Shown: piece after piece, positions 22,490 through 25,923 of the stretch
Layout: the number at the start of each line of letters is the position of its first letter
How positions within the stretch are numbered: the stretch's first letter is position 1
Source: Planctomycetota bacterium
Lineage (GTDB): Bacteria > Planctomycetota > Phycisphaerae > Phycisphaerales > SM1A02
Direction of reading: 5' to 3'
Length of the DNA stretch: 43,405 nt
Assembly: GCA_017859745.1 (NCBI GenBank)
Contig: JAFMML010000026.1
Coordinates: 1 to 43,405 of the forward strand
Notes under the pieces: model-generated
Told to the model about the DNA's origin: nothing
Database searches by the model: none
Seen by the model: the letters and a program-made list of their open reading frames with translations, nothing else
Position numbers and translations under genes: made by a program

Positions 22490-23032
22490 ATGACCGTGGC
22501 CCCTCGAATCTCCCCACCCGCGATGCCGCCGTGCTCGGTCTTCCGGAGATTCCTGCGCGGCCGCGCCCTCAAGTACACCACGGAGCGTGCGGAGATCCTC
22601 GACCGCGTCCTGGCCTTCGACGGCCCCTTCGAGGTCGACGAGCTCGTTCGCTCGCTCGAGGATCGGCGACGGCAGGTCTCCAAGGCGACGGTCTACCGAA
22701 CCATCAAGTTGCTTCAGGAGGCCGGCATCGTCGCGCCGGCGCTTCACGACGGCAAGCAGTCCCGCTACCTGCTCGCCCACGGACGTGCTCCTCGCGACTG
22801 GATGGTCTGCGTCCGCACCGGCCGCACGGTCGACTTCTCCTCGCCGGAACTCGTCGAGTTGCGCGACCGGATCTGCCGCGAACTCGGCTGGGATCCGGTA
22901 GGCCATCGCCTCGAGATCTACGCCAGCAGCCCCGAGTCGATGGACGAGGATGCTCACACGAATCCCGCGGGCCCCGCGCCCGATCCAGGTTCGAGATCCT
23001 CCTCCGGATCGAGCGGCCTCGAGATGGCGTAG
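22490..23032 (+). CDS. Fur-family transcriptional regulator, degenerate metal sites
   Basis: This 180-residue protein has the Fur winged-helix domain: LKYTTERAEILDRVLAFDGPF (split at 28-48) and the recognition segment VSKATVYRTIKLLQEAGIV (63-81). The C-terminal dimerisation part is recognisable (VDFSSPELVELRDRICRELGWDPVGHRLEIY). However, the usual HHDH-x-CxxC block reads GRAPRDWMVCVRTG, leaving only Cys107, and the C-terminal CxxC is absent (SSPES). The regulatory and structural metal sites are therefore largely lost. A low-complexity tail of about 25 residues overlaps the opposite-strand tsaE gene by 79 bases. The ATG at 22490 has no clear ribosome-binding site; 22523 is an alternative. The ligand is unknown. 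Confidence 0.85.
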   Translation: MTVAPRISPPAMPPCSVFRRFLRGRALKYTTERAEILDRVLAFDGPFEVDELVRSLEDRRRQVSKATVYRTIKLLQEAGIVAPALHDGKQSRYLLAHGRAPRDWMVCVRTGRTVDFSSPELVELRDRICRELGWDPVGHRLEIYASSPESMDEDAHTNPAGPAPDPGSRSSSGSSGLEMA

Positions 23033-23667
23033 TCGCCGCGGAACCATCGCGACAGATCCGCACCGCGACACCGATCCGAGCAGAACCTCTCCTGCGCGCC
23101 GCCGGCGGAGATGTCGCGGCCGCAGATCGTGCAGCGGGCACCGATCGGAGCCGGCGTTCTCGCGACCGCGGATCCATGCAGGGTGCACAAGGCGTCGACG
23201 AGGCGACGAGATTCGGCCGGACGGCGGCGATCGAGGATCGCCACCCGACGCGACGAGTCCTCCTCGCCGGGATCGATCGTGACGACCAGATCGGGCGGCG
23301 GCGCGTGTTCGCCGAGACGATCTGGCCACTCGATGGCGATGATCGCCGCCGCCTCCTCGGCGATCGCCTCGATCTCGAGCCCCGCCGCCTCGCCTTCATC
23401 CTCGATGCGATAGGCATCCACGTGCACGAGCGCTCGCCGGCCATCGTCGTATCGCTGCAATCGCACGAAGCTCGGGCTCGACACCTCGTCGGTGGAAAGC
23501 CCGAGACCGCGGACGAGTCCTCGCACGAACGTGGTCTTGCCTGCACCGAGCCCGCCTTGAAGATGCAGGACGACCCCCTGTTCCAGAACGCCCGCGATGG
23601 TCTCGGCGATGCGCTCGGTGTCCATGTGGGTCGCCGCGAGGACGACGGTCGGCTCGGTCGAACTCAT
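22954..23667 (-). CDS. tsaE: TsaE ATPase fused to YacG-type zinc domain
   Basis: This is a 237-residue fusion. Residues about 5-155 are TsaE, the ATPase of the threonylcarbamoyl-adenosine (t6A37) tRNA modification complex: Walker A GGLGAGKTT (38-46), SSPSFVRLQRY, HVDAYRIED and the IEWPDRL motif. Residues about 177-215 match YacG, a small zinc protein that inhibits DNA gyrase in E. coli: CTIC (C179, C182), FCSDRC (C196, C200), then ADLSRWFRGDYAI. It is one uninterrupted frame. The ATG at 23667 overlaps the thiL stop as ATGA. The 3' end overlaps the converging Fur-family gene by 79 bases. YacG is normally a free protein of about 65 residues, so the fusion is notable. Confidence 0.9.
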   Translation of the reverse strand: MSSTEPTVVLAATHMDTERIAETIAGVLEQGVVLHLQGGLGAGKTTFVRGLVRGLGLSTDEVSSPSFVRLQRYDDGRRALVHVDAYRIEDEGEAAGLEIEAIAEEAAAIIAIEWPDRLGEHAPPPDLVVTIDPGEEDSSRRVAILDRRRPAESRRLVDALCTLHGSAVARTPAPIGARCTICGRDISAGGAQERFCSDRCRGADLSRWFRGDYAISRPLDPEEDLEPGSGAGPAGFV

Positions 23668-24644
23668 GCGTGCTCCTCCCGATCCGCGCCGACCTCGGCA
23701 GCCGCCGATCGGACGACGCCGTGTTCGAACCCCGATCGCGTGATGTCGACGATGCCGCCGCCGACGCGCAGTCGGACTGCGGGGCCCTGCCCTCGTTCGA
23801 CCACTTCGCCGATGCGCCGAACGGACACGCCTCCCGCGGATTCCGGAGGCGGAGAGGCGGCCGTGAAGAGGAGTTCGAAGTCCTCGCCGTCGCCGATGGC
23901 GCGACGCCAATCGAGGCCCGGAGCGCACGGGAGACTGGCGGCGTCGATTTCGATGGCGAGATTCGAGGACTCCGGCTCGCCGCGCCTCGCAACGAGCAGA
24001 TGACCTGCGTCGATGCCGAGTCCGTCGCTCAGGTCGATCATGGCGTGAAGGTCGTCGCCGAGGCGAGTCCCGAGTTCGATGGCGGCGTCGACTCGAGGCT
24101 CGAACTCGAGATGGCGCCCGCCGCCGTCGGGATCCAACGAACCTCCCAGGACGCCCGTGACCGCCACGTGATCGCCGATCCGGCTTCCTCGCCGGGTCAC
24201 GACGCGCCCACCGGGCAGCGCCGGAGTCGCGAGGATCGCCACGGAGACGACCAGCGGCGCGTCCGGACGGTCGTGCACCGAGGTGTCGCCGCCGACGAGC
24301 GGACACCCGTGTCGATCGGCCGCATCGCGCAGGCCCGCCAACAGGCGCTCGGCCACGGACTCCGGGCAATCCGCGGGCAAGGTCGCCGAGGCGAGGCATG
24401 CAAGCGGTCGCGCGGCCATCGCCGCGACATCGCTGACGTTCCGAAGCACCGCCTTGCGACCGATGAGAAACGGATCGGTCCCGGCTCGAAAATGCCGTCC
24501 CTCGACCACCGCATCGATGGCGGCCAGCACCCGGCCCTCGGGCGCACGCACCACCGCCATGTCGTCCCCCGCGTCGAGTTCGATCGACTCGCCCGCCGCC
24601 GCCTGCGTGGCCAACAGATGCGCAATGAAGTCCCGCTCACGCAT
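23664..24644 (-). CDS. thiL: Thiamine-monophosphate kinase
   Basis: This 326-residue cytoplasmic enzyme phosphorylates thiamine monophosphate to thiamine pyrophosphate with ATP. Family motifs: DAGDDMAVV near the N-terminus (magnesium-binding aspartates), NVSDVAAMAARP, GGDTSVHD, MIDLSDGLGIDAGHL and GDGEDFELLFT. The length is typical. I chose ATG 24644, because GAGGGGG lies about 10 bases upstream; ATGs at 24662 and 24674 would lengthen the overlap with waaA. The gene overlaps the end of waaA by 8 bases and the start of tsaE by 4, so the three genes form a tightly coupled operon. Confidence 0.95.
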   Translation of the reverse strand: MRERDFIAHLLATQAAAGESIELDAGDDMAVVRAPEGRVLAAIDAVVEGRHFRAGTDPFLIGRKAVLRNVSDVAAMAARPLACLASATLPADCPESVAERLLAGLRDAADRHGCPLVGGDTSVHDRPDAPLVVSVAILATPALPGGRVVTRRGSRIGDHVAVTGVLGGSLDPDGGGRHLEFEPRVDAAIELGTRLGDDLHAMIDLSDGLGIDAGHLLVARRGEPESSNLAIEIDAASLPCAPGLDWRRAIGDGEDFELLFTAASPPPESAGGVSVRRIGEVVERGQGPAVRLRVGGGIVDITRSGFEHGVVRSAAAEVGADREEHA

Positions 24645-25923
24645 CGCCACACGCCCCCTCATGCGTGCCGGCATCGAATCGGCATCGCGCCCGAAGCGCC
24701 TCGGCGGCGCGAGCGGACGCGCCCTGGCGGCACGCGATCACCCTTCGGCCCGCTTCTGCGATCGACCGACGCAGATCCGCATCGGCAAGCAGTCGCCGCA
24801 GGTTCTCGGGGAGACCCTCGCGGTCGGTGGCGACCACGCCACCGCCATCTCGGAGGGGCCCCACCGTCGACGCGAAGTCGCCCATCGACGGTCCCACGAT
24901 GGTCGCCTTGCCAAGGGCCACCGGTTCGACCGGGTCGGATCCATGCAGGCGACCGAAGCTCCGTCCGACGACGACGACATCGGCGAGGGCGTACGCGGCC
25001 CGCAGTTCTCCAAGGGTGTCGAGCAGATACCGACCTGTGGGGCTGCATCTCGCGCCTCGACTTCGCCGCACGCACCCCGGCATGGCGGCCTCCGCGGCGT
25101 CCCACCACTCCGGCCTTCGCGGGGCGCAGAGCAGTTGGACCCCCGACGGCATCGAGGAGACGAGCATTTCCGGCTCGCCGAGCGCCGTCGAGCCGGCGAC
25201 GACGAGGGGACGTCCCGGATCGATGCCCAAGGCCTCCCCAAGTTCGCGCGCCCCCTCCACCTCCGCCGCATCCTCGATGCGAGCCGCGTCCCACTTCATG
25301 CTGCCGGCGATCTCGATCCGATCTTCGGGCACCCCCAACGCCGCGAACCTGTCGGCATACGCCTGATCCTGGGCCAGCACGAGATCGAGGCCGCGGAACA
25401 TCGGCGCAACCAGCCGCCGGACCCGCCGGTATCCGCGATAGCTGCGCGGACTGAGCCGGCCGTTCAGCACCACGATCGGGATCTCGCGGCGGCGGCACGC
25501 CGAGACCAGATGCGGCCAGATCTCGAGTTCGATCGTGGCGACGACGTCGGGTCGAACCCGATCGAGCATCCGCTCGACGGCCGCGGAGAGATCGAACGGG
25601 TACTGCAGCACGGTGTGCGGCGGCTCGTAGAGATCGATCGCCCGGCGCAGCCCCGTCGGCGTGGTCGCGGCGATGGCGAGATCGACCTCGGGCGACTCCC
25701 CCTCGAGACGTCTCACGAGTTCCCTGCACGCGCCGATCTCGCCGACGGAGACCCCATGGATCAGGATGCGGCGACGTCCCCGCTCCGGAAGCGGTTCACC
25801 GTGTCCGAGTCGTGCCGAGAGGTCGAGCCCACCGCCGCCGGAGCGTCGGAGCCACTTGGGTGCGAGCACCGGAGCGGCCGCGACCGCGGCGGCGACGTAG
25901 GCGGCGTCGATCAGAACGCCCAT
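24637..25923 (-). CDS. waaA: 3-deoxy-D-manno-octulosonic acid (Kdo) transferase
   Basis: This 428-residue enzyme transfers Kdo from CMP-Kdo to lipid A precursor at the inner membrane, the first core step of lipopolysaccharide. Seen: an N-terminal hydrophobic anchor (VLIDAAYVAAAVAAAPVL), the GVSVGEIGACREL segment, TTPTGLRRA, the DVVATIELEIWPHL motif, VVLNGRLS, and the C-terminal glycosyltransferase part with VVAGSTALGEPEML, GSDPVEPVALGKATIVGP. All are typical of WaaA/KdtA. It is the first gene of the waaA-thiL-tsaE operon. A TAGCAT hexamer lies 10 bases before the ATG on the minus strand. Its presence supports an outer membrane carrying LPS. Confidence 0.95.
   Translation of the reverse strand: MGVLIDAAYVAAAVAAAPVLAPKWLRRSGGGGLDLSARLGHGEPLPERGRRRILIHGVSVGEIGACRELVRRLEGESPEVDLAIAATTPTGLRRAIDLYEPPHTVLQYPFDLSAAVERMLDRVRPDVVATIELEIWPHLVSACRRREIPIVVLNGRLSPRSYRGYRRVRRLVAPMFRGLDLVLAQDQAYADRFAALGVPEDRIEIAGSMKWDAARIEDAAEVEGARELGEALGIDPGRPLVVAGSTALGEPEMLVSSMPSGVQLLCAPRRPEWWDAAEAAMPGCVRRSRGARCSPTGRYLLDTLGELRAAYALADVVVVGRSFGRLHGSDPVEPVALGKATIVGPSMGDFASTVGPLRDGGGVVATDREGLPENLRRLLADADLRRSIAEAGRRVIACRQGASARAAEALRARCRFDAGTHEGACGDA

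Follow-up and report, generated by a model that had tools for sequence, protein, structure and literature searches.

Introduction

The bacterial ATPase TsaE (YjeE) serves the t6A modification of tRNA. As described in PMC9654439, TsaE resets TsaB-TsaD by switching from ATP-bound to ADP-bound form and back, and tRNA is excluded when TsaE binds. The corresponding eukaryotic and archaeal system, KEOPS, is linked to telomere length and recombination repair in PMC3426518 and PMC10989989.

YacG of Escherichia coli is a stand-alone DNA gyrase inhibitor. PMC10886550 describes a zinc-finger part that touches GyrB with the critical insertion of a Trp, and a C-terminal region that is required and spans GyrB and GyrA. 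Phe513 of GyrB is implicated in the YacG site in PMC5507300, which prints F40 for E. coli YacG; in the E. coli YacG sequence itself, residue 40 is a Trp. The protein has been placed in the treble-clef TRASH family, according to PMC4999995. A literature search for a fusion of TsaE with YacG gave none describing it among the titles and abstract beginnings of the matches listed.

The Fusion Gene and Its Neighborhood

The window, i.e., the whole stretch of 43,405 nucleotides of planctomycete DNA that was analyzed, contains a gene (22954..23667, minus strand) whose uninterrupted translation runs for 237 residues and then reaches a stop. Pfam places a TsaE and a YacG domain in this open frame, both over their cut-offs. 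The original prediction, a TsaE joined in a single uninterrupted frame to a YacG-type zinc module, is thereby confirmed; its coordinates were correct, and the strand, which it left unnamed, is the minus strand. It had also considered that a sequencing error could have joined two separate genes. A local frame error is ruled out, because the fused form recurs in 111 of the 170 loci read within the order, the window's included, and these stem from six family groups. As no evidence in favor of such an error, of sequencing or of assembly, was found either, its probability is negligible.

In the host assembly (3.24 Mb, 97 percent complete), the fusion is the sole TsaE and the sole YacG over cut-off. 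A separate yacG, proposed as a check on the fusion, is absent at that level: three weak matches, none above 15 bits, fall short of it, and the TsaE model has sub-cut-off matches too. TsaD is present (260 bits), as is another, shorter match to PF00814 that is probably TsaB.

Directly upstream lies thiL (23664..24674, minus strand), a name that fits and is assigned at the level of PF00586. There is an overlap of 4 nt between the thiL stop and the start ATG of the fusion gene, and we infer that the fusion gene is translationally coupled to thiL. Further upstream, waaA (kdtA; 24637..25923, minus strand; PF04413, E = 2e-53) extends 38 nt past the listed thiL start. These overlaps and Pfam matches bear out the tight neighborhood with thiL and waaA that had been claimed. 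A thiL relative stands beside tsaE in 64 of the 66 order loci examined with tblastn; a waaA relative was seen in 27 of the 66, all of the window's family, a count limited by flanks of 1.5–2 kb. On the other side, a convergent Fur-family gene (22490..23032, plus strand; PF01475, E = 7.4e-22) shares 79 nt with the end of the fusion gene, and tblastn detected its relatives in 42 of the 66 loci. The usual Fur motif is CxxC; by eye, its second cysteine is missing from this protein (VCVRTG). A scan for promoters and terminators found none, and a plasmid search gave no match.

The TsaE Part

The TsaE ATPase domain occupies residues 14–140 (23248..23628, minus strand), the same span being obtained from the genome search. 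It matches PF02367 with 109.4 bits (cut-off 26.6, E = 1.6e-31) and the TsaE equivalog TIGR00150 of NCBIfam with 89.1 bits, above the cut-off of 60.1. The motifs named in the original prediction can be read directly: Walker A, GGLGAGKT, at residues 38–45 (23533..23556, minus strand), and IEWPDRL at residues 112–118. Together with H-x-D, the Walker A and E-W motifs of TsaE are thus all present, and G38, G41, G43, K44, T45, H82, D84, E113 and W114 are invariant in 22 aligned four-cysteine fusions.

A predicted model of the whole chain (pLDDT 83.7), a test proposed at the outset, superimposes its N-terminal part on Thermotoga maritima TsaE (6n9a_E) with a Z score of 21.2 and an rmsd of 2.0 over 160 aligned residues: by prediction, this part has the TsaE fold. 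Between the two Pfam stretches, residues 141–177 (23137..23247, minus strand) form the end of TsaE, its last predicted helix (150–167) and a linker. The mean pLDDT drops to 62 for residues 171–180 and below 50 at 173–175.

The YacG Part

The YacG-family domain covers residues 178–223 (22999..23136, minus strand), with cysteines at 179, 182, 196 and 200. The C-terminal part had been proposed for comparison with PF03884, and it matches this family over the gathering score of 25.5, with 32.3 bits on the fusion protein (E = 7.8e-8) and 35.3 bits in the genome search. The predicted CxxC-x13-CxxxC module and DLSRWFRGDY are indeed found in the sequence as C179-x2-C182-x13-C196-x3-C200 followed by ADLSRWFRGDY, so all four zinc cysteines are present. 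NCBIfam scores remain below the equivalog cut-offs (NF002362, 44.2 bits for 79; NF001638, 17.2 bits for 83), and we therefore call the C-terminal part a YacG-family domain and not a YacG equivalog.

When the C-terminal 68 residues were compared with solved chains by phmmer, the E. coli YacG chains 4tma_I and 1lv3_A came out on top with weak E values of 0.019 and 0.02, the cysteines and the Trp being in register. Lysozyme chains, which follow in that list from E = 0.064, are surely chance matches. In this alignment, Trp208 (23044..23046, minus strand) corresponds to Trp40 of E. coli YacG. The C-terminal tail, residues 214–237 (22957..23028, minus strand; AISRPLDPEEDLEP...), carries an Arg nine residues after the Trp and an acidic end. 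Trp208 and the acidic tail match E. coli elements that contact gyrase. In the model, residues 181–210 have block pLDDT values of 77–88, with a helix at 198–209, and the tail is weakly predicted (58–67). Fold searches with the predicted model ranked TsaE chains first, followed by other P-loop chains or unrelated ones; the YacG part was not reached.

Distribution of the Fusion

In the phylum of the window, 249 of 392 genomes have YacG at E <= 0.001. Within the order, the window protein was matched in 191 of 201 sampled genomes; YacG was matched at E <= 0.01 in 160 of them (51 + 78 + 31) and was over cut-off in 140 (48 + 68 + 24). One genome of the window's own genus (G364) gives a weak match to the protein (E = 5.1e-5) and no YacG match, and its gene is possibly cut by a contig end. 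Where both places are listed, yacG follows tsaE within 2 kb and on its strand in 129 of 130 order genomes. In the lone exception (L093, genome G482), some 13 kb separate tsaE from yacG, which is on the opposite strand.

To resolve the arrangements, 170 order loci were read with our own profiles built from fusions, 31 of the 201 genomes being left out; among those 31, coordinates place yacG after tsaE in G402, G500, G503 and G506. TsaE and YacG are fused in 111 loci, are adjacent separate genes in 42 and lie apart in one, with TsaE only in 15 and YacG only in one. This count, suggested with the original prediction, spreads the fusion over six families: the window's family f1 (35 fused, 14 TsaE only), f2 (52 fused, 11 separate, one TsaE only and one YacG only, at a contig end), f3 (eight fused), f4 (nine fused, 31 separate, one apart), f5 (six fused) and f101 (one fused). 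The fusion is an arrangement that recurs in each of the six order families sampled, and not one odd protein. In the separate pairs, the YacG domain begins 29–233 nt past the tsaE stop in 41 of the 42 and 717 nt past it in the remaining one.

In 14 f1 loci and one f2 locus, TsaE ends 1 to 33 residues past its domain, without YacG. No YacG over cut-off was found elsewhere in the 14 f1 genomes, where sub-threshold matches occur in G427 and G508. Since sister families carry the pair, we infer from these sequences that YacG was lost.

Outside the order, tsaE was found near none of 19 YacG loci, in stretches of mostly 4 kb on each side; these loci were chosen from the best matches listed, leaving out G024, a 2-base placeholder. 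The TsaE profile was not blind, as it recovered TsaE at all 80 loci of a bacteria-wide set. Ten neighbors of yacG tested outside the order included GrpE (L055, L064), a DksA/TraR-type zinc-finger protein (L058, L061) and four without a Pfam match. Long frames upstream of YacG at five such loci (L068–L072) resembled other fusions; Pfam matched YacG alone in them, and they are therefore read as open frames. In public species genomes, a search with one peptide pattern kept at least 80 loci. Among the matches listed, seven have YacG by TsaE (five in one frame, two as neighbors), and all seven are planctomycete records, six from Phycisphaerae/Phycisphaeraceae and one from Planctomycetaceae. YacG-like matches were also seen on eight contigs classed as viral in IMG/VR (L327–L334), seven of which were matched again by profile.

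A TsaE tree (167 rows, 132 columns) requires at least 13 changes for the fused/separate state and seven for zinc. The tree is poorly resolved, its strongly supported branches forcing about one change per group, and no conclusion was drawn from it.

Loss of Zinc Ligands

The weight that the original prediction laid on the zinc module does not carry over to family f2, where cysteines 2, 3 and 4 are missing from 50 of the 52 fused proteins (mostly C-P-x-T/S ... P-F-x-x-x-R-A). All four cysteines are present in each of the 12 non-fused f2 YacG domains read and in each of the 58 complete fused domains from other families; another f1 domain (G538) is cut at its start. Among the order loci read, the loss is thus confined to fused copies from a single family. 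All 50 zincless fusions (e.g., L041, L046, L051) retain cysteine 1, which suggests a role other than zinc. A Phycisphaerae MAG fusion (L253, 2468-3238) lacks ligands 2 and 3 and keeps cysteine 4 (PFADEKC), and is a possible intermediate in zinc loss.

Every one of the 50 zincless domains retains the core residues P, F, D, L and W, with D-L before the Trp. The Trp itself is found in 174 of 174 parsed YacG domains, the 50 zincless ones among them, a count that is biased because the profile, built on fusions, finds domains that keep the helix motif. Stand-alone YacG has Trp and D-L as well, both beyond the order (19 of 19) and in E. coli. Among order domains, the acidic pair of the tail occurs in 46 of the 50 zincless, 57 of the 61 remaining fused and 43 of the 44 non-fused ones; outside the order, it occurs in 17 of 19. 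An Arg nine residues after the Trp is frequent among order domains (130 of 155, fused and separate alike; 45 of the 50 zincless domains) and rare outside the order (1 of 19). At the level of sequence, the zincless branch retains the helix Trp and, for the most part, the tail; the zinc site is not retained.

Two zincless proteins (L096, L097) are matched by Pfam to TsaE and not to YacG at an E threshold of 0.01, their YacG part being recognized by our own profile. The model of another (L249) has short helices at 172–183 (block pLDDT 85, then 67); because four-cysteine relatives in the alignment help this model, it is weak evidence.

The gyrase side was compared in 30 GyrB proteins, 18 from genomes with YacG and 12 from genomes without. 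Phe513 is not diagnostic: Phe is found in 18 of 18 and 11 of 12, respectively. Co-variation over the 30 proteins did not separate the two groups informatively; of six columns that came through a loose filter, four reflect changes common to four genomes of one genus.

Discussion

We favor, with roughly even confidence, a modular protein of two functions: a TsaE serving t6A and a YacG part that probably still docks on gyrase. Neighboring genes of the conserved row thiL-tsaE-yacG would have been joined into one protein. Its N-terminal part would be the organism's sole TsaE, the ATPase switching TsaB-TsaD in t6A tRNA modification; the YacG-family part would dock on DNA gyrase through the helix Trp (208) and the acidic tail and hold gyrase off DNA, like E. 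coli YacG. The fusion would yield both activities in equal amounts. Against gyrase as the partner, the zinc finger, which makes contact with GyrB in E. coli, is without its ligands in most of f2, the YacG domain of the window scores below the NCBI equivalog cut-off, GyrB Phe513 does not discriminate and the Trp count is biased by a profile built on fusions. Moreover, the Arg at Trp+9, common in the order and rare outside, could mean a different partner.

Such a partner is part of a reading that we consider possible and rather doubtful, in which TsaE has recruited the YacG domain as an accessory that touches TsaB-TsaD or tRNA and has ceased to serve gyrase. The linkage of yacG to tsaE across the order, set against none of 19 loci outside, would fit it, as would this tail Arg, shared by fused and separate copies, and the confinement of zinc-ligand loss to fused copies of one family. 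However, 14 loci of the window's own family carry TsaE without the domain, and TsaE in all fifteen TsaE-only proteins does not need a YacG part; the retained Trp and D-L, furthermore, are the residues kept in stand-alone YacG. It is also unlikely that the fusion is a by-product of a tight operon, with both parts working as elsewhere and equal production its sole effect. The pair is kept together across the order, yet yacG has other neighbors at the outside loci examined; the coexistence of fused and separate forms in f2 and f4, the short distances in 41 of the 42 separate pairs (one at 717 nt) and the thiL relative beside tsaE in nearly all loci would be expected of a by-product. The absence of the domain from 14 f1 loci and the loss of three zinc ligands in 50 of 52 fused f2 copies could finally point to a decaying, functionless YacG part. 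We regard this as very improbable, given the five core residues kept in every zincless domain and the Arg in 45, in domains that the profile favors.

Returning to the two-function protein, we propose only tentatively, and with low confidence, that the state of TsaE (ATP- or ADP-bound, TsaB-TsaD-bound) may decide whether the YacG part is free to hold gyrase, docking being by the Trp helix and acidic tail and not by the zinc finger. TsaE activity, gyrase binding and cross-talk of the two parts are all putative, being drawn from sequence comparison. To our knowledge, no mechanism of the kind attributed to KEOPS is known for bacterial TsaE. If the tentative proposal of control by the TsaE state is true, t6A modification and DNA supercoiling are connected through a single protein in an order of planctomycetes. 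A conserved covalent link of TsaE to a gyrase-inhibitor domain offers a direct, testable case of such a connection, and the zincless branch is a natural experiment on what YacG function needs.

Comparison with Known Systems

The fusion protein resembles bacterial TsaE (YjeE; PF02367/TIGR00150) in its motifs, predicted fold, single copy and thiL neighbor; thiL also neighbors tsaE in Bacillus subtilis. It differs by a C-terminal domain of some 60 residues added after the linker. By its YacG match, this domain probably belongs to the same fold class as the treble-clef TRASH family. With E. coli YacG (PF03884; PDB 1LV3, 4TMA), it shares the four-cysteine motif, DLxxW and the acidic tail. However, E. 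coli YacG is a stand-alone protein of 65 residues encoded in the gene row coaE-zapD-yacG, whereas the YacG part of the window is joined in frame to TsaE. The cysteine pairs are separated by 13 residues in the window protein and by 15 in E. coli YacG; the S-R motif in the tail is common in YacG domains of the order, unlike in E. coli YacG, and, again unlike E. coli YacG, most fused domains of family f2 are without three zinc ligands.
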